A DNA stretch of 64,000 nucleotides from NCBI GenBank assembly GCA_021323535.1, contig JAJONO010000010.1, positions 1 to 64,000 of the forward strand, written 5' to 3'. Below the pieces are notes generated by a model. That model saw only the letters and a list, made by a program, of their open reading frames with translations, was not told where the DNA came from and did not search any database. Origin of the DNA: Bacteroidota bacterium. Lineage in GTDB: Bacteria > Bacteroidota > Bacteroidia > B-17B0 > Aurantibacillaceae. Positions 3,118 through 17,418 of this stretch are shown here, in pieces. The translations under genes were made by a program, and so were the position numbers. Positions within the stretch are counted from its first letter, which is position 1; each line of letters opens with the position of its first letter.

Positions 3118-5631
3118 TTAAGGCTTGGTTTCTATTTCGAAAGTACTTTCGGTGATAGGGCTCGAATCCCTGAAGAAGGAAACACCACCCCAGTTAAACA
3201 TTTTTTTCTGGTACACCCAGGCCATGTTATCTTTTACAACAACACGTTGCAGAATAACAACTCCGGCGCCTGTTATAGTTTCTTCGGTAATACCCGGACC
3301 ATATTTCGACAAGAGCTGTTTCATTTTATCATCTACGCTCTGACTGTTATCGGAATTTAAAAGTTTTTCGCATTCAATCAGTTTATCTTTTGCATAAGCG
3401 TCGCCGCCTTTATAAGTAAGAGCGGTTTCGTAATTTTTCTTTGCGTCGCGGTAACGCTTTAAAGCAAAGAAGTTGTCTGCGGTTTTAATAAACTCTTTAT
3501 ATTTTGCATCGCCGGCGCCCGCCATTGCAGCCTTCTGAAGGTCATCAATTTCTTTAAGACGGTTTTTAGGATATGCCTCTGAAGGCTTTAAGTTACTTGC
3601 TTCTGTATAAAAATTCTTTGCTCCGTTAAGATCTTTTTTGTTGAAGGCATCGTCGGCTCGTGTAATCGCCACCTTGTATTTACCATCAGCATCCGCCAGT
3701 TTCCTGGCATCTTCCTCCGCTTTCTTCTTTGCTTCAGCGTCGGCTTTTGCTTTAGCAGCGGCTTCTTCTGCGGCTTTTTTCTTTGCATCCGCTTCCGATA
3801 GTTTTTTCGCTTCCGCGTCGGCTTTTGCCTTGGCAGCGGCTTCTGCATCTGCTTTCGCTTTTGCAGCAGCTTCTTCTGCGGCTTTCTTTTTCGCTTCAGC
3901 CTCTGATAGTTTTTTAGCCTCAGCATCCGCTTTTGCCTTGGCATCAGCTTCTGCCTTGGCCTTCGCAGCAGCTTCCGCATCTGCTTTCGCTTTTGCTGCG
4001 GCTTCTTCGGCGGCTTTCTTTTTTGCTTCGGCCTCTGACAGTTTTTTAGCCTCAGCATCCGCTTTGGCTTTGGCATCCGCTTCTGCCTTGGCTTTTGCAG
4101 CAGCATCGGCATCGGCCTTAGCTTTTGCATCTGCTTCAGCTTTCGCCTTCGCAGCGGCTTCTGCGTCTGATTTGGCTTTGGCAGCTGCTTCTTCAGCAGC
4201 TTTCTTTTTTGCTTCGGCGTCGGCTTTTGCTTTGGCCTCCGCATCGGCTTTGGCTTTTGCGTCAGCTTCGGCTTTTGCTTTGGCGGCGGCTTCTGCATCT
4301 GCTTTAGCTTTTGCAGCAGCTTCAGCATCGGCTTTTGCCTTTGCAGCAGCGTCTTCGGCAGCTTTCTTTTTCGCTTCGGCATCGGCCTTGGCTTTTGCAT
4401 CAGCATCGGCTTTTGCTTTTGCGTCGGCTTCAGCTTTGGCTTTTGCCGCAGCTTCGGCATCGGCCTTGGCTTTTGCTGCAGCTTCGTCAGCAGCTTTCTT
4501 TTTTGCTTCGGCATCCGCTTTTGCTTTCGCCTCTGCATCTGCCTTTGCTTTTGCTTCCGCTTCGGCCTTGGCTTTAGCAGCAGCTTCTTCTTCAGCTTTT
4601 TTCTTTGCGGCTGCTTCCGCGTCCGCCTTAGCCTTTGCTTCAGCATCGGCTTTTGCTTTAGCAGCGGCATCCGCAGCAGCTTTCGCTTTGGCTTCGGCTT
4701 CGGCTTTTGCTTTAGCTTCCGCCTCTGCTTTGGCTTTTGCCTCCGCTTCAGCCTTTGCCTTTGCAGCAGCTTCTTCCTCTGCTTTTTTCTTCGCAGCAGC
4801 CTCTGCTTCAGCCTTGGCTCTTGCCTCAGCTTCGGCCTTTGCCTTCGCTTCTGCTTCAGCTTTTGCCTTGGCATCTGCCTCCGCTTTTGCTTTGGCGGCG
4901 GCTTCGGCGGCGGCTTTCGCTTTGGCTTCAGCATCTGCTTTTGCTTTCGCGTCGGCTTCCGCAATCAATTTGTTAATGTTGGTTATCTGGTCTTTAGGAT
5001 AATTTTCGTTTGGCTTTATTTTTAAAGCGTCGTTATAAGCGGCAATGGCCGACTGCCATTCCTTTTTTCCGAATGACTTATCTCCGTTTTTAATAGCCGC
5101 CTGGTAATTGGCTTCTTTATTTTTTTCTTTATTCTTAGCTTCTTTTTCCGCTTCCTTGATAGCAGTTAAGCCAGCAATCATCTGGTTCAGATAATTTTTA
5201 TCGTACTCGAAATTATCGATGTTAGGGTTGTAATTGTACTTATTGATTGGCTGATTGAGTAAAGAATAATCAACTCCTTCGATCCTTTTGTTGAGACCCA
5301 TTTCGGCGCGTATAGCAGCAAATTTGTTGGCTTGTTTTTCCGGCGGAACCCCGAGTGTACTCACCGCAAAACGCTTAGAAACATAACCGTCTTTTGAAAC
5401 TGTAACAATGTAATCGGCGCCTAAGGGAAGACTGAATGTATAATCACCCGAACCATCCGTCATGGCGCTAACTACCACCTTACCTCCTTGTGTTGCCTGA
5501 ATAGTTGCCCCTCCAACATTTCCGTTATCGTCCGAAATATTTCCTTCAAAGCGAAGCTGCACAGCCTCCTGCGAAAAAAATAAAGTAGAACAAAAAAGTA
5601 ACAGAATTGTGTAATAGTACTTAAAAATCAT
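3118..5631 (-). CDS. Exported Ala/Lys/Glu-rich coiled-coil protein with TPR-like flanks
   Basis: About 837 aa from the ATG at 5631, chosen over an ATG nine codons earlier because it places a signal peptide (MIFKYYYTILLLFCS..) at the very start. A carboxypeptidase-regulatory-like beta domain follows (FEGNISDDNGN, then GSGDYTFSLP). Next come a TPR-like unit, about 420 residues of KAKAEAEA/AAKKKAEEEA repeats, and two further TPR-like units. The three TPR-like units share a (A/N)YPKDQI-type ending. The long segment resembles domain II of TolA, which forms an extended helix spanning the periplasm; that is an analogy, not proof of homology. No sorting domain or OmpA domain is seen. It probably forms a long periplasmic or surface stalk. 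It is followed after 3 bases by the methyltransferase gene. Confidence 0.75.
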   Translation of the reverse strand: MIFKYYYTILLLFCSTLFFSQEAVQLRFEGNISDDNGNVGGATIQATQGGKVVVSAMTDGSGDYTFSLPLGADYIVTVSKDGYVSKRFAVSTLGVPPEKQANKFAAIRAEMGLNKRIEGVDYSLLNQPINKYNYNPNIDNFEYDKNYLNQMIAGLTAIKEAEKEAKNKEKNKEANYQAAIKNGDKSFGKKEWQSAIAAYNDALKIKPNENYPKDQITNINKLIAEADAKAKADAEAKAKAAAEAAAKAKAEADAKAKAEAEAKAKAEAEARAKAEAEAAAKKKAEEEAAAKAKAEAEAKAKAEAEAKAKAEAEAKAKAAADAAAKAKADAEAKAKADAEAAAKKKAEEEAAAKAKAEAEAKAKADAEAKAKADAEAKKKAADEAAAKAKADAEAAAKAKAEADAKAKADADAKAKADAEAKKKAAEDAAAKAKADAEAAAKAKADAEAAAKAKAEADAKAKADAEAKAKADAEAKKKAAEEAAAKAKSDAEAAAKAKAEADAKAKADADAAAKAKAEADAKAKADAEAKKLSEAEAKKKAAEEAAAKAKADAEAAAKAKAEADAKAKADAEAKKLSEAEAKKKAAEEAAAKAKADAEAAAKAKADAEAKKLSEADAKKKAAEEAAAKAKADAEAKKKAEEDARKLADADGKYKVAITRADDAFNKKDLNGAKNFYTEASNLKPSEAYPKNRLKEIDDLQKAAMAGAGDAKYKEFIKTADNFFALKRYRDAKKNYETALTYKGGDAYAKDKLIECEKLLNSDNSQSVDDKMKQLLSKYGPGITEETITGAGVVILQRVVVKDNMAWVYQKKMFNWGGVSFFRDSSPITESTFEIETKP
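3690..4958. repeat. Low-complexity repeat array encoding KAKADAEA-type helix
   Basis: Degenerate GC-richer repeats built on codons for Ala, Lys, Glu and Asp. Longer units ending in EAKKLSEA recur at the 3-prime side of the gene. The composition keeps several other frames open, on both strands, for more than 1.3 kb; those frames encode only Ser/Ala/Phe or Lys/Arg/Pro/Gln strings and are not genes. Confidence 0.85.
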
Positions 5632-5702
5632 AGTTTTGGAGTCGGCAAAAATTAGCAAATAAATTTACAAAAATTAGTCATACACGGAATTAAAACTTAT
5701 CC

Positions 5703-7415: not shown

Positions 7416-9119
7416 TTACTGATTGATCAGTTTTAAAGTTTTTGTCAGGTTATTAGAGTTAGTAACTCTCACCAGGTAGTTACCAGCAGGCTGGTTTTCA
7501 AGATTGATAGAAACTTCTTCTCTGTCGCTAACTGAAGTTGTTACAACCTGACCAAGCATGTTGTAAACTTCAATTTTGTTTGAACCTTCAAGACCCTTGA
7601 TGGTAGCTTTTCCGCTCACTGCAGGATTAGGATAAACAACTAAATTGTTTTCAAAACCAACCACTTCGTTAACCCCTACAGGGCCACAAGCTCCTGCAAA
7701 TATTGCCTGAATTCCTAAGAACCCAAGATTTTGCTGAAGAACAGATACCGATGTAGCCGTTAAAGCTGCAGTAAAGTAAGTATTAGGAGGTAAAATGGTC
7801 ACCGTTGAAGAAGCTATCGGGAAATATCCAACCGCATTTGAAGGTTGAGCTATACCGAGGTAATAATCCACGTTCGGGTTTAATGTCTGAGGAGTGAATG
7901 TATAGTTACTTACATAAGTGCCAAGCATACCCGGAGCAATAACAAAAGTATTTGAGTTGGCGATACCAACCCCTGCTGCGTTAGCTAAAACTGCCCACGT
8001 ATTGTTACCAGTATTGCTTGTACCCGAAGAAATGGCCATACGCGCACCTGTAAGGGTTGTAGTTACCGGCACCTGGAATTTCGTATAAATAATACCTGAA
8101 CCCGTATTGAACCCTACAGCGGTAGCTGCAAAGTTTGTAACGTTAGGACCAGCTGCCCATTTATCACAATTCATTGAAGCTGTGGCTGTGGCCATATTGT
8201 TAGTGTTCACCTGATCAGAAGGAACTGACACTGTATATGTATTTAAACCACTCGTAACAACAGTATTGGTAGGAAAAGCCACAACAGTAGACTGGCCCGG
8301 TGAAAGAGCAGGAATTGTGAACGTTGATGTAGATGAATTTACACCTACGCAGGTATAATTAACAGGAATGCTGGTTAAAGTAGTGTTACTTGCATTTCTG
8401 ATCATTGCCTGAATACCATGCATGCTATAAGTATTAGCCGGAATTAATCCTGTTGGCAGAATGTAATCCACAACTACATCATTACTGTTCGGGTTAGGAA
8501 CACCAAATCTGAATTGAGGACGGAACGTAGCATTTCCAAGTGTTGCAGGAGGTGTTGTTGATGCCGAAGCGCCTGTTGCCCCCTGTGTAGTTGCCATTGA
8601 AACGCAATTGTATGTAGCTGAGTTGGTAGCAAAAGTAAGCCCTTCGTACTCATATGCCACATATAATCCACCACCGGTATAGTTAAAGTTGGCAGTAAAA
8701 GTCATATCAACGGTTGTAGCTGTTGCTACAGAAGGAATACTGTAAACTCCAGTGTATGCCATTGTCAGACCTGAACCTGAAGGGTTATAAGTGGTGCCCA
8801 TTGTATAACTTGTACTGCTTGTATTGGCAAGCCATACAGTAAAGTTTCCGGTTGCAGGAGTACCGCCAGCCGCCCCGGCACTAAGATTAAAACCAAAGGA
8901 ATTGATAGATGTTGCCCCTGAAATAGCAGTCATTTCTGAAGCAGGAACCAGATACTGTGCCCTCATAACAGTATGACCTGTTGTTCCGTTCGGTCCCCTG
9001 GCAGTCGAAAAACCATTAAGCGCGGTATTCGCTGGCGCCGCATGAATATTGTTAACCTGCGCCGTAGTAGCAGAGGCTAATCCTAAAGCGCAGAAAATTG
9101 ATAGTGTAATTTTTTTCAT
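7416..9119 (-). CDS. Secreted T9SS type A sorting-domain protein
   Basis: About 567 aa from the ATG at 9119, chosen because it gives a clean signal peptide (MKKITLSIFCALGLA..TAQ) and sits just downstream of a full promoter. The upstream in-frame ATG would add 38 residues with no signal-peptide character. The body is Thr/Ala/Asn-rich with beta-sandwich character and no recognised enzyme motif. The C-terminus is a type A sorting domain: VYPNPAVSGKA, EVYNMLGQVV and PAGNYLVRV, ending KTLKLINQ. It should be exported by Sec and the T9SS to the surface or medium. The function of the mature part is unknown. Confidence 0.85.
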   Translation of the reverse strand: MKKITLSIFCALGLASATTAQVNNIHAAPANTALNGFSTARGPNGTTGHTVMRAQYLVPASEMTAISGATSINSFGFNLSAGAAGGTPATGNFTVWLANTSSTSYTMGTTYNPSGSGLTMAYTGVYSIPSVATATTVDMTFTANFNYTGGGLYVAYEYEGLTFATNSATYNCVSMATTQGATGASASTTPPATLGNATFRPQFRFGVPNPNSNDVVVDYILPTGLIPANTYSMHGIQAMIRNASNTTLTSIPVNYTCVGVNSSTSTFTIPALSPGQSTVVAFPTNTVVTSGLNTYTVSVPSDQVNTNNMATATASMNCDKWAAGPNVTNFAATAVGFNTGSGIIYTKFQVPVTTTLTGARMAISSGTSNTGNNTWAVLANAAGVGIANSNTFVIAPGMLGTYVSNYTFTPQTLNPNVDYYLGIAQPSNAVGYFPIASSTVTILPPNTYFTAALTATSVSVLQQNLGFLGIQAIFAGACGPVGVNEVVGFENNLVVYPNPAVSGKATIKGLEGSNKIEVYNMLGQVVTTSVSDREEVSINLENQPAGNYLVRVTNSNNLTKTLKLINQ

Positions 9120-9145
9120 GAATCGATTTTTTAGATTGTTTCCAC

Positions 9146-9177
9146 CAAAAATATAAAAATTTCTCAGTTTTTTCAAA
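9146..9177 (-). promoter_or_regulatory. Full Bacteroidota promoter (-33 TTTG, 20-bp spacer, -7 TATTTTTG)
   Basis: On the minus strand TTTG (9174-9177) is followed after 20 bases by TATTTTTG (9146-9153), matching both elements of the Bacteroidota housekeeping promoter. The predicted start of transcription is about 20 bases before the ATG at 9119. Confidence 0.65.
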
Positions 9178-9269
9178 ATAATTAACATAACCTTTATCCA
9201 AACGGACTTATGAAATTTTCGTATAAATAGCATCTATATTATAAGTTTTATTATCTTTAAACTTTGATT

Positions 9270-12200
9270 ATGATTTTAAGGTTAAATGCCTTAATATGCG
9301 GTACCCCAAACAGCCTTTTGTATAGAAAAGCCCTCTTTTTTATCCTGTTCATAATGGCTTCTGCCATTTCATTTGCCCAAGGCGCAACTGAAGATGTTAA
9401 AAAACAAGCCAACAAGCTTTACGAAGAAGAAGATTACGCGGGCGCTTATAAGCTTTACTCGCAGCTTGTAGCCAATTTTTCAAAGGATCCTGAGTATAAT
9501 TTCAGATTAGGGGTGTGTATGATCTATGCTGAGCCTGATAAGAAGAAATGTCTCCCTTACCTAAAGTTCGCCAACAGTAAACCAGAAGCTCCTAAAGAAG
9601 CAAAGTTTTACCTCGGTAAAGCTAATCACATCAATTATTATTTTGATGAAGCCCTCAAACACTATAACGAATTTAAGAAGAACGCTTCCTCTTCGCAGAT
9701 AAAAAAATTACAGGTTGAACGCGAAATAAAAGCCTGCGTTTATGGTAAACGTCTCATGAGCAACATTTCCGACCTGGTTGTTCAGAGCAAAAAAAATCTG
9801 AATGAAGCCGATTATTTCAGAACTTATGATCTCAGTAATGTAGGCGGAAAACTTCTGGTCAAACCTGAGGAATTTAAAACCGGCGCCGATAAAAAGAAAA
9901 AAGATAAATCAATTGTTTATCAGCCTGCTACAGGCAATCGTGTTTATTACAGTAGTTACGGCGATGGCGACAATAAAGATATTTATTACAGAACCAAACT
10001 ACCGAACGGAACTTTTAGTCCGCCACAAAAAGTAAGCGGCATCAATTCCGAGTTCGATGAAGATTTTCCTTTCCTCCATCCTAACGGTAGCACACTTTAC
10101 TTTGCCAGTAAAGGACACAATGGTATGGGGGGCTATGATATTTTCAAATCCACTTATATTGAATCAAGCGATTCATGGAGCCAACCTGTTAACCTGGAAT
10201 TTCCTATTAACTCACCCGATGATGATTACCTGTATGTAACCGATTCCCTTGAGAAAACAGCTTATTTCAGTACAGGAAGACAAAGTCTGCCCGGAAAAAT
10301 TGATGTCCTAAAAATAAGCACCGAGCGTAAACCTATTGACGTGCTTGGCATTAAAGGAACAGTTGTAAAAGAAAACGCCGAACAAAGTTTGTTGAGCCGC
10401 ATTACTATTAAAAACATGAACACCGGTAATGTTGTTGGTGTTTATGAAGCGCAGGATAATGGCGACTACTTCATGGATCTGCCAAACGGAGCCAAATTAT
10501 TATTCACAGTTGAAACACCGGGATTAAAAACACAATCAGATAAAGTATTGTTGCCGTTGATATCAACATTAAAACCATTGCGACAAACCATTTCTTATGA
10601 TAACGGAATACTTAAAATCATTAACTATTTCGATGAAGCGCCAACCGATACCAGTTATATTCAATACCTTAAGATCATCGAGAAAAAAGCAAAACTGGAT
10701 GTTAATCAGGGACAAAACAACCTCGATCCAACTTTAGTTAATAATTCAGGAAATGATCCAGGGAAGAATGGTAATGGAAACGATGGAGGAAACACCGCCA
10801 CTGTAACCACTACACAAACTAATTCTGCCACCGGCGGCACAACCGCAAGCACAGCAAGCGCAACAAGTACCAAAAAAGGACTCGACAATAAGCAACTGGC
10901 CGAAATGGCAAAGAAAGATGCTGAAGAATCCTCAAAAACAGGGATACAGCTGAACAATGATTCGGAAGATGCGAAACAATTAGGTAATGCTAAAATAATT
11001 GAAGGCGAAAAGAAAATAGCAAAAGGAGATTCTATTCTGAAAAATGCTGAATCGATTACCGATGAAACGGAGAAAAAAACAGCGATAGATCAGGGAACCG
11101 CCATTAAACAGGAAGGACAAGACGACAAGAACCTGGGAACAAAAATACTTGATTACTCTGACGCCTTGAAAAAGGATGCCGAAATGAAATTTAAAGAGGC
11201 GCAACTTAATACCGATTATTCAGCGGAAGTCAGCAAGACCATTAATAATAAAAATGTAAGTAAGGAAACTATTGATAAGCTGGATGGCATCCAGAAACAA
11301 ATCGATGAGACATCGGGTTATAAGAGCAAGTCGGATGAGATCTTACAGAAGATGAAAACCGATCAGGAAGAAAAAGAAAAACAGGTTACAGCTATTGAAA
11401 AAACAAACGAAGGCGTTAAAACCAGTATTACTGAAATTAAAGAGGCTATTACTTCAACAGAAACAGATCTGAAGAATACAAAAAAGAAAAAAGACAAAGA
11501 GCCGATTGAACAAAAACTCAACGAACTCAAAACCGACTTAATTGAAAAAGAAAAACAAGTGGCCACGAATGAAGGCGAGATCAAAAAAATCAAAGATGAG
11601 CTCAACAACACCTCAAAAGGTGTTGATATTGCAAACAAGATCAAGACCGAAACCATTGCAACGCCAACCTATACCAGTCCTATCGCCACAACTTCAAACA
11701 CAAATACCGGCGGGGTAAACACTACTATTAATACTGCAAGCAAAACTCTTCCTGAAAAATACAACAACAAAATTGTTGTAAGCGATGATACAAATAAGGG
11801 AAGCATTGAAAAAAGCACAACAGAACTTAAAAATTATAATAAGGAAGTGGATGCTGCTATTACCAAAACAAAAACAGATATAGCTAAAACCACAAACGCC
11901 AGAAAAAAACAGGATCTTAATACTGAATTAAAACAACTGGAGAACATTAAAAAACAAAACAATCAACAGATCGCGAATAACAACAAAAAGATTGACGATA
12001 TCAATAAATCAGTTGCGGGAACAAACACCCAGAAGAGCGAGCCTATCAACCCAATTACTTCAAACAATAATTCCGACGCCCTTAAGCAATTGGATAATCT
12101 GAATAATAATCTGAATTCGAACGATAACGCCAACTTCGACTACAATGCTTATCAGAACACGCAGGCTCAGAAATTAAAAGTAGAAGCCGACTCTAAAATA

Positions 12201-15200
12201 AACGATGTAGCGGCGCAGCAAAAGAAACTTAAAGATCTTATCGCTTCGACCAAGAACTCCATTCAGAATACTCCAGTAAATAATACGGGTGGCGGTGGCC
12301 TTACTCCTTCACAGCTTACCAAAGAAGCTGAAGATCTTAATATAAAAGCATTTGATCTGAAAATGCAGGCCAATACAAAAACCGGCGCCGAAAAAGATGA
12401 ATTAATGAAACAAGCCAAGGCAGAAGAAAATAAAGCGAACGAGAAAAGCCTGCAGGCTGCAGAAATTACAAAAAACGATAATAAATCTGTTTTCGATACC
12501 AATAAAGAAAATCTTAAAAATTTAATTGCCGACAATAAAGCCAACGAAGCCGATATGAACGACGCGAAACGTTTATCGGAGGAAGCTGATCTTGCCTTTA
12601 AACAAGCGGCTGCGCTTAGAGATGAGGCAAACACGCTCCCGAACATTGGCGCCAAACTAGGAAGTTTGAGCAATGCAGAAGAAAAAGAAGCCGAAGCTTT
12701 ATCTAAACAAAAACAAGCCGTTGATCTTTTAAAAACTTCGAGTCCGGGTGTAACACTTAAAACAGCAACCACGTCATCAAACGCCCCGGTTGCTTCTACT
12801 AACGGAGGAAACAATCCTAATCTCGGGAACCAGCTTGCCGATGTAAACAAAGGAGTAACCGATCTGCTTGATGCCAAAATCAGCGCTTACGAAAAATTAT
12901 ACGAAGCAAACAATGTTGAACTAGAACAAATTGTAACGGGATTAAAAAACAACCAGGCAAGTATTGACAAAACGCCTGCATTAAAAAGTGAGTTTATTTC
13001 TGCAAATAATAAAGTAGCTGCGGCGCAAACATTAAAACAAAGTTCGGTTGCGGCGGGTGACAAAAACAAGAAACTCAATGATCTTGTTGAAGCCACTAAA
13101 AAACAAATTGACGCGCTTAACCAGCTGAACAAACTCAGTAAAAATGTTGATCAGGCCATTGCTAAAAACGGTAATGGAGGAAATACAAGCGACGGGGGAA
13201 CGACTGCTACAACGACTAAAACAACAAGTACTACCAGCGATGGAGGTAATACAACCGCAGCTACAAAAACAACTTCTACCGGCGACGGCGGAACCACAAC
13301 TCAAACTACCAGTACAACCAATGACGGTGGTAATACAACAGCTGCTACGAAAACAACTTCGACAAGTGATGGCGGAACTACAACTCAAACTACAAGTACT
13401 ACCAGTGATGGAGGTAATACAACAGCTGCTACGAAAACAACCTCGACAGGTGATGGTGGAACTACAACTCAAACTACCAGTACTACCAGTGATGGAGGTA
13501 ATACAACAGCTGCCACGAAAACAACTTCTACCGGCGACGGAGGAACTACAACTCAAACTACCAGTACTACCAGTGATGGAGGCAATACAACAGCTGCCAC
13601 GAAAACAACTTCGACAGGTGATGGTGGAACTACAACTCAGACGACAAGTACAACCAGCGACGGAGGTAATACAGCCACAACACAAACTACATCGTCAACC
13701 AGTGATGGCGGAGCTATAACAAGCACTACTGTGGATGTAAAAACACTTGCTCAAAAAGATACCAGCGCCGGTGAAGTGGTGACTTACCTCGAAAACAATA
13801 AAACAAAACTCCAGAATCCTGCCGCAAATAATTTGATCAACAAATCTCTTACCGATATTAAAACCACGGAAACAGAATTAAAAACTGTTGAAACTGAAAT
13901 TAAGAATGCTGGTAATAACACTGGAGGAGGAAACGGTGAAACCGCGGCCCAGTTAAAAACCAAGTCAGATAATTTACTTACCGAAGCCGAAGAGATCAGT
14001 GTGAAGGCCTTTGATATGAAAACATTGGCCAATACAAAAACGGGGGCAGAAAAAGACAGCCTGATGAATGAGGCTAAAAAATTAGAAGAGCAATCGCAAA
14101 CAAAAAAACTGGATGCTGTTAAATACACCGAACAAAGCAACAACATTACTTACAATACCAATAAAACAGCTATTACTGAACTGTTAACAAGGCTGAAGAA
14201 CGATGACCCTACTCTTGCGGGACAACTGGAAGACAAAAATACCGAAGTGGGAACCTTGCAAACCAAAACCAAACAATTAAGAGACGAAGGTAATACGCAA
14301 ACGAACAGTAATGCTAAGATCGGCGCAATGATGAACGCTGAAGAAAAAGAAGCGGAAATGATTCAGAAACAAACCGAGATACTGAACGAGCTTAAAAAGA
14401 AATATCCTGATTATGTGGTGAAAGAAGTTTCTTCGGGCGGAACAAACAGTGGAACTCCTGAAGCGCTGACACAAAAACAGACACAGCTTCGTGAAAAACA
14501 GTACACCAATCTTACCAATTTAACCAATGGCTTCAGTCTCGAATACGAAACGTCGAAAAACAATGTCCCTGGTAATCTTACCAACGACCAGAAAGCCGTT
14601 AAACAAAATGCCGATGACCTGAACGCAGAATCGAAGCGGTTATTAATACAATCAACAACAGAGAAAAACGAAAATGAGAAAATGAAACTGTTGACCCTTG
14701 CCGCAAAAACCGGAAACGCAGCAGTTGATCTTCTCAATAAACTTCCTAAAACAAATAACACTGTTGCCACCAACCCTAACGGTAACGGAAATCCAAATGG
14801 GAACGGGAATCCGAACGGCAACGGCAACCCTAATGTCAATGCTAATCCGAACGGAAATGGGAACCCTAATGGCAACGGTAACCCAAATGCTACAGGAAGA
14901 ACCATTAAAGTAGAAGGGTTAGAAGTTGTAACCGGAAACGCGTATAACGAAAACAGACCTATTCCTGTAGATGAAAAAATTCCTGACGGACTTTTCTTCA
15001 GGGTTCAGATCGGTGCCTTTAAAACAAGATTGCCTAATAATACATTCAGAGGGTTAAATCCGGTGAATGCCGAAACAACACCATCCGGGTGGATACGTTA
15101 TACTGCGGGTAACTTCAAAGAATTTGCCGTGGCTAATGGTGTTAAAAATGATTTAAGGAACCTTGGTTACAGTGATGCATTCGTGGTAGGATTCTACAAC

Positions 15201-16121
15201 GGAAAACGTATTACACTTGCCGAAGCTTATGAAATACTTGCAAAAGAAGGCAAGACCGCGGAAACAAACCCGAATGCGACAGTTGGTATCAATAACAAAA
15301 CAAACATTCCGAAAGCAAACACAGTTATACCTAATGCAACTACAGTGTCCGGCGATCCTGCAACCGTAACAAAAGAACATGAACAAATGAATGATCTTCT
15401 TTATACGGTACAGATTGGTGTGTACAACAAACAGGCAACAAAACGTCAGCTATTTGGCTTAACCCCTATCTATACTGAAAAACTTCCTAGTGGTCTTTAC
15501 CGCTACACAGCCGGTATTTATAACAACCAGGATAAACTAAAAACAGATAAGGACCGTGTTGTTGGATTAGGAATTCGCGACGCGTTTATCAGCGCTTATT
15601 TAAACGGAAAGAAAATTACATTTGCTGAAGGGAAAACAAAACAACAGGAAGGCACAACCAAAATGGAAACTGAAAATCCGATCGTGTTCCCTAACGGAAA
15701 TATAAATACTCCGGTAAACAACACACCTGTTAATAATACGCCAGTGAATAATACACCTGCAAACAACAATCCTGTTCAGCCATTCTCTAATGGTGTAACC
15801 TCTTACCCGGCTGCTACAGCCGAAAACGGTGTGAAGGCAAATGAAGAAGGAATTTCATTTAAAGTTCAGATCGGTGCATACAGCAAACAGGTTCCGAATG
15901 AAGTGGCAGCGAGATTCTCTTCGATACGTAACTGGCCGGTAGAAAATAAACAGATCAACGGCCTTTACATTTACAACATCGGAAATTTTGTGGAAGCTAA
16001 ATTCGCAAAAGGATTAAAAGATCAGGCTGTAAGCGTTGGTATTACCGATGCCTTCATAACAGTTTATAAAGACGGAAAAAAATTACCCGCTGCAGAACAG
16101 GCCCAGTACCTTAACAGGTAG
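9270..16121 (+). CDS. Giant exported TPR-PD40-coiled-coil protein with three C-terminal SPOR-like domains
   Basis: About 2,283 aa. The ATG at 9270 is preferred to the TTG two codons earlier. Order by residue: signal peptide 1-38 (ending SFAQG); TPR-like helices 40-170; WD40-like PD40 beta-propeller repeats 217-347, including FLHPNGSTLYFASKGHN; a carboxypeptidase-regulatory-like domain about 357-430; long coiled coils 477-1303; a Thr/Ser/Gly repeat array 1307-1487; a second coiled coil to 1827; an NPNGNG linker about 1834-1875; then three SPOR-like modules at about 1905-1990, 2042-2124 and 2192-2277, each opening with a VQIG(A/V) strand. SPOR domains are known to bind denuded peptidoglycan; attachment to the cell wall is inferred. 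A 150-aa coiled-coil block occurs twice. The front end is paralogous to the PD40 protein at 35638. The function is unknown. Confidence 0.8.
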   Translation: MILRLNALICGTPNSLLYRKALFFILFIMASAISFAQGATEDVKKQANKLYEEEDYAGAYKLYSQLVANFSKDPEYNFRLGVCMIYAEPDKKKCLPYLKFANSKPEAPKEAKFYLGKANHINYYFDEALKHYNEFKKNASSSQIKKLQVEREIKACVYGKRLMSNISDLVVQSKKNLNEADYFRTYDLSNVGGKLLVKPEEFKTGADKKKKDKSIVYQPATGNRVYYSSYGDGDNKDIYYRTKLPNGTFSPPQKVSGINSEFDEDFPFLHPNGSTLYFASKGHNGMGGYDIFKSTYIESSDSWSQPVNLEFPINSPDDDYLYVTDSLEKTAYFSTGRQSLPGKIDVLKISTERKPIDVLGIKGTVVKENAEQSLLSRITIKNMNTGNVVGVYEAQDNGDYFMDLPNGAKLLFTVETPGLKTQSDKVLLPLISTLKPLRQTISYDNGILKIINYFDEAPTDTSYIQYLKIIEKKAKLDVNQGQNNLDPTLVNNSGNDPGKNGNGNDGGNTATVTTTQTNSATGGTTASTASATSTKKGLDNKQLAEMAKKDAEESSKTGIQLNNDSEDAKQLGNAKIIEGEKKIAKGDSILKNAESITDETEKKTAIDQGTAIKQEGQDDKNLGTKILDYSDALKKDAEMKFKEAQLNTDYSAEVSKTINNKNVSKETIDKLDGIQKQIDETSGYKSKSDEILQKMKTDQEEKEKQVTAIEKTNEGVKTSITEIKEAITSTETDLKNTKKKKDKEPIEQKLNELKTDLIEKEKQVATNEGEIKKIKDELNNTSKGVDIANKIKTETIATPTYTSPIATTSNTNTGGVNTTINTASKTLPEKYNNKIVVSDDTNKGSIEKSTTELKNYNKEVDAAITKTKTDIAKTTNARKKQDLNTELKQLENIKKQNNQQIANNNKKIDDINKSVAGTNTQKSEPINPITSNNNSDALKQLDNLNNNLNSNDNANFDYNAYQNTQAQKLKVEADSKINDVAAQQKKLKDLIASTKNSIQNTPVNNTGGGGLTPSQLTKEAEDLNIKAFDLKMQANTKTGAEKDELMKQAKAEENKANEKSLQAAEITKNDNKSVFDTNKENLKNLIADNKANEADMNDAKRLSEEADLAFKQAAALRDEANTLPNIGAKLGSLSNAEEKEAEALSKQKQAVDLLKTSSPGVTLKTATTSSNAPVASTNGGNNPNLGNQLADVNKGVTDLLDAKISAYEKLYEANNVELEQIVTGLKNNQASIDKTPALKSEFISANNKVAAAQTLKQSSVAAGDKNKKLNDLVEATKKQIDALNQLNKLSKNVDQAIAKNGNGGNTSDGGTTATTTKTTSTTSDGGNTTAATKTTSTGDGGTTTQTTSTTNDGGNTTAATKTTSTSDGGTTTQTTSTTSDGGNTTAATKTTSTGDGGTTTQTTSTTSDGGNTTAATKTTSTGDGGTTTQTTSTTSDGGNTTAATKTTSTGDGGTTTQTTSTTSDGGNTATTQTTSSTSDGGAITSTTVDVKTLAQKDTSAGEVVTYLENNKTKLQNPAANNLINKSLTDIKTTETELKTVETEIKNAGNNTGGGNGETAAQLKTKSDNLLTEAEEISVKAFDMKTLANTKTGAEKDSLMNEAKKLEEQSQTKKLDAVKYTEQSNNITYNTNKTAITELLTRLKNDDPTLAGQLEDKNTEVGTLQTKTKQLRDEGNTQTNSNAKIGAMMNAEEKEAEMIQKQTEILNELKKKYPDYVVKEVSSGGTNSGTPEALTQKQTQLREKQYTNLTNLTNGFSLEYETSKNNVPGNLTNDQKAVKQNADDLNAESKRLLIQSTTEKNENEKMKLLTLAAKTGNAAVDLLNKLPKTNNTVATNPNGNGNPNGNGNPNGNGNPNVNANPNGNGNPNGNGNPNATGRTIKVEGLEVVTGNAYNENRPIPVDEKIPDGLFFRVQIGAFKTRLPNNTFRGLNPVNAETTPSGWIRYTAGNFKEFAVANGVKNDLRNLGYSDAFVVGFYNGKRITLAEAYEILAKEGKTAETNPNATVGINNKTNIPKANTVIPNATTVSGDPATVTKEHEQMNDLLYTVQIGVYNKQATKRQLFGLTPIYTEKLPSGLYRYTAGIYNNQDKLKTDKDRVVGLGIRDAFISAYLNGKKITFAEGKTKQQEGTTKMETENPIVFPNGNINTPVNNTPVNNTPVNNTPANNNPVQPFSNGVTSYPAATAENGVKANEEGISFKVQIGAYSKQVPNEVAARFSSIRNWPVENKQINGLYIYNIGNFVEAKFAKGLKDQAVSVGITDAFITVYKDGKKLPAAEQAQYLNR
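13188..13730 (+). repeat. 84-bp tandem repeats encoding a Thr/Ser/Gly-rich linker
   Basis: About six units of 28 codons, each of the form SDGGNTTAATKTTST plus GDGGTTTQTTSTT, with first and last units degenerate. The units differ mainly at third codon positions, so the array is old enough to have diverged at the DNA level while the protein was kept. It joins two coiled-coil regions of the giant protein. Confidence 0.9.
14772..14889 (+). repeat. NPNGNG codon repeat array
   Basis: Repeats of the NPNGNG type in the giant protein, about 39 codons long, forming an Asn/Gly/Pro linker just before the first SPOR-like domain. One unit has drifted to NPNVNA. Confidence 0.85.
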
Positions 16122-16177: not shown

Positions 16178-16202
16178 TTCTTGGTTCCTGATTCCTGATT
16201 CT
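16178..16202. repeat. Short dispersed intergenic repeat (copy 1)
   Basis: The sequence around TTCTTGGTTCCTGATTCCTG lies between the giant gene and the transglycosylase gene. A close relative occurs at 31330-31354. Both copies are intergenic and in the same orientation. Confidence 0.4.
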
Positions 16203-17418
16203 AATAATGTATCGATAACGTCTGCCCAACAACCGCTTCCTGTTTTTCTTTTATGTTGTTCCACTTTCTGAGGTTATCGGCTTTCACCTCGTAAAACCCT
16301 GCGAGTTCATCAATCGTTTCTTTTTCTTTTACTATATGTAGAATTGTTTTTTTGAAAACCTGTGTGGTGTCGTTATCGGCCTCAATCGTTTTTTCAGGTG
16401 CCTCATCAGGATCCTGATTTAAACTTCCATCCTGCCCTGTTAAGTCGCGGATATACGATGAATAATCGGCTTTAAGATTTTTAGGCACGCGGATCTCATA
16501 GGTTTTTCCTTCTGTTTTCGGAAGAACGTCCTGAAGTAGCCATGGGTTAAAAAATCTTATGGTTGCTTTATTGCAGCCCACGTATTTTGCAAAGGCATTG
16601 AGGTTAGTGATGGCAGTATCTACTTTATAAGTTTTGAACGGGATGACCGGATAATAGGTCCATTTTTTCTTCTTAATTCCAAAATGCCCCGGACTTGAAA
16701 ACAAGGTTTTGTAGGCGAGGATCCTGTAAACAAAACTTCCGGTTTCCGAATTTAAATTCAATTCATAATAACTATCTGCATTCTGGCGGTCGAGGGCGTC
16801 CTGTATTCCTCCTATTCCACGATTATACGCGGCGGCGGCAAGTGTCCAGTTTTTAAAATTTGAATGCGCCATTTTAAATAATTTACATGCCGCGCGTGTG
16901 GCTTTTTCAACATGGTAACGCTCGTCTACATATTCATTTACTTCAAGATCGAAATTACGCGCCGAAACCGGTACCAGCTGCCAGAAACCGGCTGCTCCGG
17001 CAGGAGATACAATGTTTGAAAGGTGACTTTCTATAACTGCTACATATTTAAAATCGTCGGGCACTCCTTCCTTTTTTAAAATTGGTTCAATGTACGGAAA
17101 CCATTTTTGAGCCTTCACAAACAGAATTCCTGAATTTGCTTTCCAGTATGAATTACTGAAGAATTCTTTTTCGAGATTTTTTTTGATCTCGTAATTGTTA
17201 GCCGGAATTTTTTCGCCGCAGAAATCAAGGGTTGAAGGAATGTTCAATCCAAGTACATTAAAGTTATTGTCGGAGTATACAAGCGCGTTTTCAGCGGGAA
17301 AGAAAAACCAGATCCTGATTACAAAATAACCCACCAGGAAAGGGCATAAAAACAGAATGACCCTTTGGAGAAAATTGGATCTCACTAAAGTACGGATGGT
17401 TGTTTTAAGAGCGGCCAA
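16201..17418 (-). CDS. MltD-like membrane-bound lytic transglycosylase with LysM domain
   Basis: A 405-aa protein with an N-terminal membrane segment (residues 20-40). The SLT catalytic domain covers roughly 95-260: the catalytic Glu is E130 in YVAVIESHLS, followed by SPAGAAGFWQLVPVSA and AAAAYNRGIGG, the standard family motifs. A LysM peptidoglycan-binding domain ends the protein (about 355-405, HIVKEKETIDELAGFY). Such enzymes cleave glycan strands of peptidoglycan to form 1,6-anhydro ends. The gene overlaps the end of the WecA-like gene by 14 bases, so it is the last gene of the polysaccharide operon. That position suggests wall remodelling linked to surface polysaccharide assembly, which is inference. 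Confidence 0.88.
   Translation of the reverse strand: MAALKTTIRTLVRSNFLQRVILFLCPFLVGYFVIRIWFFFPAENALVYSDNNFNVLGLNIPSTLDFCGEKIPANNYEIKKNLEKEFFSNSYWKANSGILFVKAQKWFPYIEPILKKEGVPDDFKYVAVIESHLSNIVSPAGAAGFWQLVPVSARNFDLEVNEYVDERYHVEKATRAACKLFKMAHSNFKNWTLAAAAYNRGIGGIQDALDRQNADSYYELNLNSETGSFVYRILAYKTLFSSPGHFGIKKKKWTYYPVIPFKTYKVDTAITNLNAFAKYVGCNKATIRFFNPWLLQDVLPKTEGKTYEIRVPKNLKADYSSYIRDLTGQDGSLNQDPDEAPEKTIEADNDTTQVFKKTILHIVKEKETIDELAGFYEVKADNLRKWNNIKEKQEAVVGQTLSIHY

Follow-up and report, generated by a model that had tools for sequence, protein, structure and literature searches.

A conserved family of giant Bacteroidota proteins predicted to join a TPR-PD40 front end to three unequal SPOR modules

According to the accessible parts of PMC5053529 and PMC7192894, PorE consists of a TPR domain, a WD40/PD40 region and a CRD, followed by a peptidoglycan-binding C-terminus. 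The available portion of PMC7192894 further describes crystallisation of the C-terminal OmpA domain of PorE with a peptidoglycan stem fragment and proposes that PorE anchors the T9SS to the wall through this domain, and the available portion of PMC12635249 mentions neither PorE nor peptidoglycan. Loss of CHU_0125 from Cytophaga hutchinsonii, in the excerpted account of PMC5891637, led to sixfold more vesicles and a weaker outer membrane and caused no division defect; the same excerpt states that C. hutchinsonii carries tolA and tolB. With respect to SPOR domains, the excerpt of PMC6895207 reports that bare glycan is enriched at the septum, that in RlpA the glycan is contacted by Q270 and R309, the counterparts of FtsN Q251 and R285, and that a basic patch is kept among SPOR domains through varying residues.

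We compared with these systems a protein encoded in a window of 64,000 nucleotides, the whole stretch of DNA analysed, from a Bacteroidota bacterium (assembly GCA_021323535.1, contig JAJONO010000010.1). The protein, hereafter the giant, is encoded by a single open frame of 2,283 aa at 9270-16121 (+), and a TTG start lies 6 bases further 5′ of its start. The original prediction of one frame with a TPR-PD40 front and three SPOR-like modules was confirmed: a signal peptide is followed by a TPR domain, PD40 repeats, a regulatory-domain-like stretch, a spacer of about 1,400 aa and three homologous SPOR modules. Its features are as follows.

9270..9380, + strand, signal peptide, probably type I, aa 1-37, ending ...SFAQ (by eye)
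9381..9773, + strand, TPR domain, aa 38-168 (AF2 model, fold match to 2vyi_B, PDB profile matches to TPRs)
9906..10322, + strand, three PD40 repeats counted by eye, aa 213-351, a shortened propeller-type region (Pfam, alignment to the relative L014)
10335..10595, + strand, carboxypeptidase-regulatory-domain-like stretch, aa 356-442 (alignment to L014)
10731..14924, + strand, spacer of 1,398 aa, aa 488-1885, with helical-looking segments between Thr/Gly and Asn/Gly/Pro stretches (composition)
12291..12749, + strand, spacer unit copy 1, aa 1008-1160 (41% identity to copy 2)
13215..13673, + strand, 84-bp tandem array, 5.5 copies, encoding a Thr/Gly-rich 28-aa unit (repeat scan)
13938..14405, + strand, spacer unit copy 2, aa 1557-1712 (41% identity to copy 1)
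14772..14889, + strand, 18-bp tandem array, 6.6 copies, Asn/Gly/Pro linker (repeat scan)
14988..15221, + strand, predicted SPOR module 1, Gln and Arg present (Pfam, PDB profile, residues)
15393..15626, + strand, predicted SPOR module 2, Gln and Arg present (hhalign to module 1, residues)
15849..16094, + strand, predicted SPOR module 3, Gln present and Ile at the Arg position (fold match, profile, hhalign, residues)

No NCBIfam model matched the whole 2,283-aa protein over its cut-off, and Pfam detected no OmpA match in it at E ≤1. When 37 orthologs and the window protein were scanned for the lipobox pattern, none was found in the window protein and three matches came from orthologs, one before the hydrophobic stretch (L074), one in the TPR part (L089) and one inside the hydrophobic stretch, which is ambiguous (L056). 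The giant is probably secreted, non-lipidated and periplasmic.

The TPR domain of the original prediction fell below the Pfam cut-off (TPR_16, 13 bits versus 32.7) but was clear in the predicted fold. In the AF2 model of the front end (pLDDT 85.1), VIA-align superposed 123 residues on the human SGT TPR domain 2vyi_B with a Z of 16.0 and an rmsd of 2.5. Within the TPR part, Cys83 (9516-9518) is invariant and Cys156 (9735-9737) nearly so in an alignment of 23 members including the window protein (A1); most orthologs retain both residues, at a distance of 73 to 75 residues, and the pair could perhaps form a disulfide. The predicted PD40 platform held in part. Pfam matched PD40 in one stretch, aa 258-292, at 28.0 bits (cut-off 20.9), and found it in 21 of the 23 A1 members, the window protein included; the PD40 part, however, is shortened. 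In the alignment to L014, a 741-aa relative from the same genome, it corresponds to approximately the last three of five repeats counted by eye; of the 506 L014 residues that the alignment spans, about 100 are unpaired in the giant's front end. A count of the repeats by motif was dropped because the motif was too strict. Foldseek on the front end listed 1cq1, 5min, 4a2m and 4a2l, which we take to be propellers, at TM-scores ≤0.20 and rmsd ≥15, and the list of a second fold search was filled by TPR chains. As for the third part of the front end, Pfam CarbopepD_reg_2 was matched in only 1 of the 23 A1 members.

Kinship with the OmpA-ending TPR-PD40 proteins, the family against which the giant had originally been set, was supported by profile matches. 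Among the 29 front ends of alignment A3, the NCBIfam model CHU_0125_OmpA (NF053607) matched all 29 (best E, 1.8e-34) and the PorE model (NF052230) matched 28 (best E, 1.6e-30), each at E ≤0.01. The window front end scored 74 bits against the former and 69.6 bits against the latter, below the curated cut-offs of 620 and 600, respectively; these matches came from the cut-out front end alone, and with the whole protein neither the PorE nor the CHU_0125 model matched at E ≤1. The profiles thus assign the giant's front end as a relative of the PorE/CHU_0125 front ends. With regard to the T9SS connection drawn originally, this likeness stands, but it is the sole pointer to the T9SS.

Between the front end and the modules, a coiled-coil and Thr/Gly and Asn/Gly linker of about 1,500 residues had been predicted. 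A long spacer with such stretches is present, but it measures about 1,400 aa and its helical-looking segments are broken by low complexity. The spacer is poorly conserved and variable in the A1 consensus. It contains a duplication, since a direct comparison of segments showed two copies 41% identical over 143 aa (E 2e-27), although self-BLAST of the spacer printed no pair. Comparison with 35 other proteins of the family, including four second copies, did not show the Thr/Gly array elsewhere: the window protein has 14 occurrences of [SGN]DGG, the 35 others none. A count of an O-glycosylation motif, which gave 7 matches in the whole giant, was dropped. The spacer may act as a long tether.

The three C-terminal modules open with VQIG(A/V) at aa 1912, 2047 and 2199. 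Searched with the whole giant, Pfam SPOR (PF05036) scored 22.5 bits (cut-off 21; best stretch aa 1939-1973), and this match, together with that to PD40, agrees with the domains originally proposed. The same model scored 25.7 bits on module 1 alone and matched 17 of 18 module-1 sequences (A4) and 18 of the 23 A1 members. The window's module 3 alone had no Pfam SPOR match at E 0.01, yet 13 of 18 module-3 sequences (A6) matched. Homology among the modules was evident from hhalign, which aligned modules 2 and 3 to module 1 at 99.9% and 99.7%, respectively. PDB profile searches returned CwlC (9.8e-5) and FtsN (0.014) for module 1, CwlC at E 0.15 only for module 2, and CwlC (9.4e-5) for module 3, for which a designed pentatricopeptide protein ranked higher by summed weak repeats.

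The predicted C-terminal model had a pLDDT of 81.9 and a pTM of 0.36; because of the latter, it does not predict how the modules are placed relative to one another. A fold search covering model residues 287-393, that is, module 3 only, superposed this module on CwlC 1x60 (Z 7.6, rmsd 2.3, 73 residues aligned) and on the glycan-bound RlpA SPOR domain 6i09 (Z 6.9, rmsd 2.8, 72 residues aligned). A Z below 8 may reflect a common arrangement, and 6ozd, an exported protein that bears no SPOR label, ties at Z 7.5; the match was nevertheless trusted, because CwlC, RlpA and DamX occur within the first five rows and the profiles agree. Foldseek gave no match for the C-terminal model at E ≤0.001, the best being CwlC at 6.5e-3. 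Modules 1 and 2 are without helix α1 in the predicted model. Taken together, Pfam, the profiles and module homology, with the predicted fold for module 3, support the original reading of the three repeats, which we assign as SPOR modules.

We then read the glycan-contact positions in 27 sequences (A2), the residue register being taken from the FtsN alignment of module 1 and from alignments between the modules. The Gln equivalent to RlpA Q270 was present in 27/27 sequences in modules 1 and 2 and in 26/27 in module 3. The Arg equivalent to RlpA R309 and FtsN R285 was likewise found in 27/27 in modules 1 and 2, in contrast to 1/27 in module 3, where Ile takes its place in 21/27. An equivalent of RlpA R311 was not kept in any of the three modules, the A2 residue being mostly Thr or Asn. 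Rows of A2 were chosen by a motif that allowed Q, E or K at the Gln position with V and G fixed, and left out L063, L068, L071, L073, L078, L084 and L087 as well as four second copies. Those outside A2 were judged by eye: in L071 and L084 modules 1 and 2 agree with the pattern, L063 is missing module 3 and the Arg of module 1, and no clear motif is visible in L073. Contig or locus ends truncate L068, L078 and L087. L063 is a shortened relative of 1,409 aa from a 2.3-Mb genome (G024) of the same genus as the window. The modules are therefore unequal by these counts, modules 1 and 2 having Gln and Arg and module 3 having Gln only, and binding of modules 1 and 2 to denuded peptidoglycan is plausible.

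The front-end profile matched 138 of 295 genomes of the class at E ≤1e-75, and the tail profile matched 218 of the 295 at E ≤1e-10, many of these matches being weak and far below those of the giants. When matches were joined by an open frame, front end and SPOR tail occurred in one frame in 103 of 137 genomes from 25 families, so that the architecture first read from a single protein recurs widely; these one-frame giants measure 1,488-2,606 aa (median 2,104). Such conservation refutes a chance fusion of unrelated frames or an assembly error, a reading that is hardly credible despite the low-complexity arrays in the spacer. In the other 34 genomes the front end had no tail in the same frame. 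Part of these are likely contig breaks, for example G023 and G035, in which the tail lies on another contig; others, in families f4 and f10, are shorter versions of 1,135-1,685 aa, with one exception of 701 aa. In a phylum sample of 148 genomes, which differs from the class sample, only 2 had the tail at E ≤1e-40, and all 148 are at least 90% complete, which indicates that much of the well-sequenced phylum lacks the protein. The giant thus represents a conserved family of part of the class.

Among the PD40 relatives in the window's own genome, the 19 best matches (L002-L020) were read; at least 8 further PD40 places exist there. Nine of the 19 end in OmpA over the cut-off, one in a weak OmpA (L018) and three in a SPOR-like module; five stop after the front end and one (L003) is not clear. 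The three SPOR-like enders, L008 (681 aa), L013 (680 aa) and L014 (741 aa), aligned to module 1 by hhalign at 96.3%, 92.5% and 96.8%, respectively, and by eye possess the Gln and the Arg; none exceeded the Pfam SPOR cut-off. These three short relatives make the PD40-SPOR design a class that recurs, with the giant as its extreme case. It had been suggested that no named protein has this design. We found no paper on it in the open-access literature searched, but the giant is not one of a kind, given the conserved family and the three short relatives. Both halves are of known kinds; what that literature did not yield is their joining, a protein of this size, the triple SPOR with its unequal modules, or the gene cluster described below.

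In many other families the giant lies in a same-strand cluster with a protein of about 1,500 aa, PlsY, ClpS, an M48 peptidase, NfeD and FloA. Cluster genes were named by Pfam on the L072 copies and further loci were labelled by BLAST; counts, made by eye, refer to labelled genes at 20 further loci from as many families. Directly 5′ of the giant, PlsY or the ~1,500-aa protein is found at 13 of 17 assessable loci; ClpS, M48, NfeD or FloA lies 3′ at 10 of 18 (at L137 after a small opposite frame), and a cluster gene occurs on at least one side at 15 of 19. Cluster genes are on neither side at L135, L136 and L139, and L134 has no upstream side visible and no downstream match. The order ClpS, M48 peptidase, NfeD, FloA 3′ of the giant was seen at L072:5699-8314, L089 and L121 (M48 missing in L121), and the ~1,500-aa protein 5′ of it at L121, L122, L124, L125, L129-L132, L138 and L140. 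Two scanned copies of the ~1,500-aa protein had no Pfam or NCBIfam match, and a signal peptide was recognised by eye; the copy in the window's genome lies elsewhere (G000:C76:44947-49056; 36% identity, E 1.2e-265). As named by Pfam, the cluster genes include neither division genes nor T9SS genes.

Within the window's genus the giant's neighbours vary. The convergent frame at 16201-17418 (−) is by eye lytic transglycosylase-like with a LysM end, its cluster being found, among the loci compared, only in the window and L054. At 7416-9233 (−) lies what appears by eye to be a secreted protein with a T9SS sorting tail, also seen at L054 and L056-L058; in several genomes of the genus such a gene corresponds to neighbour cluster 4, and perhaps also to cluster 1. 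A further frame at 3118-5658 (−), of 846 aa, in which by eye a long Ala/Lys/Glu repeat stretch separates a regulatory-domain-like front from TPR-like repeats, is possibly another periplasmic spacer protein.

What would such a protein do? We consider it somewhat better than an even call that the giant is a peptidoglycan-tethered envelope scaffold, working in the manner of PorE or CHU_0125 but gripping bare glycan rather than stem peptides. With OmpA replaced by SPOR, the recognised wall feature should shift from stem peptide to bare glycan, and recognition of bare glycan, which is septum-enriched, favours a wall-tethered scaffold acting at amidase sites. The TPR domain and shortened PD40 part would dock on an outer-membrane or periplasmic partner, whereas modules 1 and 2, judging from homology and their residues, would grip glycan strands stripped of stem peptides. 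Module 3, with the SPOR fold and the Gln and without the Arg, would probably be a weaker or different binder. The long, fast-evolving spacer could let the docked complex follow the wall where amidases have denuded the peptidoglycan, most likely at the division zone. Two observations lower our confidence in this scaffold reading slightly: no module keeps R311, and cells without CHU_0125 show normal division.

Alternatively, the giant could be an accessory or alternative T9SS part, a PorE-like anchor in which SPOR in place of OmpA ties the machine to denuded wall. We regard this as unlikely. The front end is PorE-like, and GldM was found in 280 of the 295 class genomes, so that nearly all carriers have GldM; such near-universality, however, means that co-occurrence says little. 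Moreover, the front end or tail of the giant was matched in six of the 15 genomes that have no GldM match (G094, G140, G229, G238, G289 and G312, five of them at most 81% complete), and the Pfam-named cluster genes, as far as labelled, are not T9SS genes. The window's genome also has at least nine separate OmpA-ending relatives that could include PorE, and the window protein, unlike PorE, has no lipobox.

An improbable explanation is that the SPOR modules are degenerate and bind protein rather than glycan, in which case the giant would serve as a periplasmic spacer or assembly platform for the cluster products. Loss of the Arg in module 3, absence of an R311 equivalent from all three modules and, in the model, the missing helix α1 of modules 1 and 2 agree with this view, as do the window's Pfam scores near the cut-off and the lack of a match for module 3 alone. 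The unkept R311 and the normal division of the CHU_0125 mutant raise it slightly. Yet Gln and Arg are retained without exception in the A2 rows of modules 1 and 2, in tails down to 30% identity to the window's, which argues against this explanation.

Returning to the peptidoglycan-tethered scaffold, the conserved neighbourhood suggests a wider role that we put forward tentatively and consider doubtful. The giant might belong, as the arm that grips the wall, to an unrecognised envelope module of Bacteroidota that also comprises the ~1,500-aa neighbour, PlsY, the M48 peptidase and NfeD/FloA. Such a module would connect membrane supply and upkeep of the outer membrane with denuded peptidoglycan in the division zone; elsewhere Tol-Pal is credited with this job. 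C. hutchinsonii has tolA and tolB, so across the phylum as a whole the giant would not have to stand in for Tol-Pal.

That a protein of about 2,100 aa recurs in one frame in 25 families of a single class, yet exceeds the cut-off of no NCBIfam model and appears in no paper found in our searches, marks a clear gap. Two questions can now be put to the test, namely whether Bacteroidota anchor their envelope machines on bare glycan instead of stem peptides and what role the conserved PlsY-giant-ClpS-M48-NfeD-FloA cluster plays. The unequal modules, two with Gln and Arg and one with Gln only, offer a ready-made mutational comparison.

In comparison with known systems, the giant resembles PorE (PG1058), the T9SS lipoprotein of Porphyromonas gingivalis, in domain order up to the wall-binding C-terminus. 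PorE is described as a lipoprotein of about 670 aa with five predicted propeller blades and an OmpA end, whereas the giant lacks a lipobox and combines three PD40 repeats with a 1,400-aa spacer and three predicted SPOR modules. CHU_0125 (NF053607) has a TPR-PD40 front end like that of the giant, but in the excerpted description it is a 656-aa protein with an OmpA end, without SPOR or the giant spacer. With FtsN, RlpA and CwlC, the giant shares the predicted SPOR fold (module 3) and the glycan-binding Gln and Arg (modules 1 and 2); it differs in having three modules, two of them without a predicted α1, and in its front end, since these three proteins are not known to have a TPR-PD40 front end. 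The short paralogs L008, L013 and L014 have a like front end and a SPOR-like end; they differ in carrying a single module, where the giant has three, and in having no long spacer.
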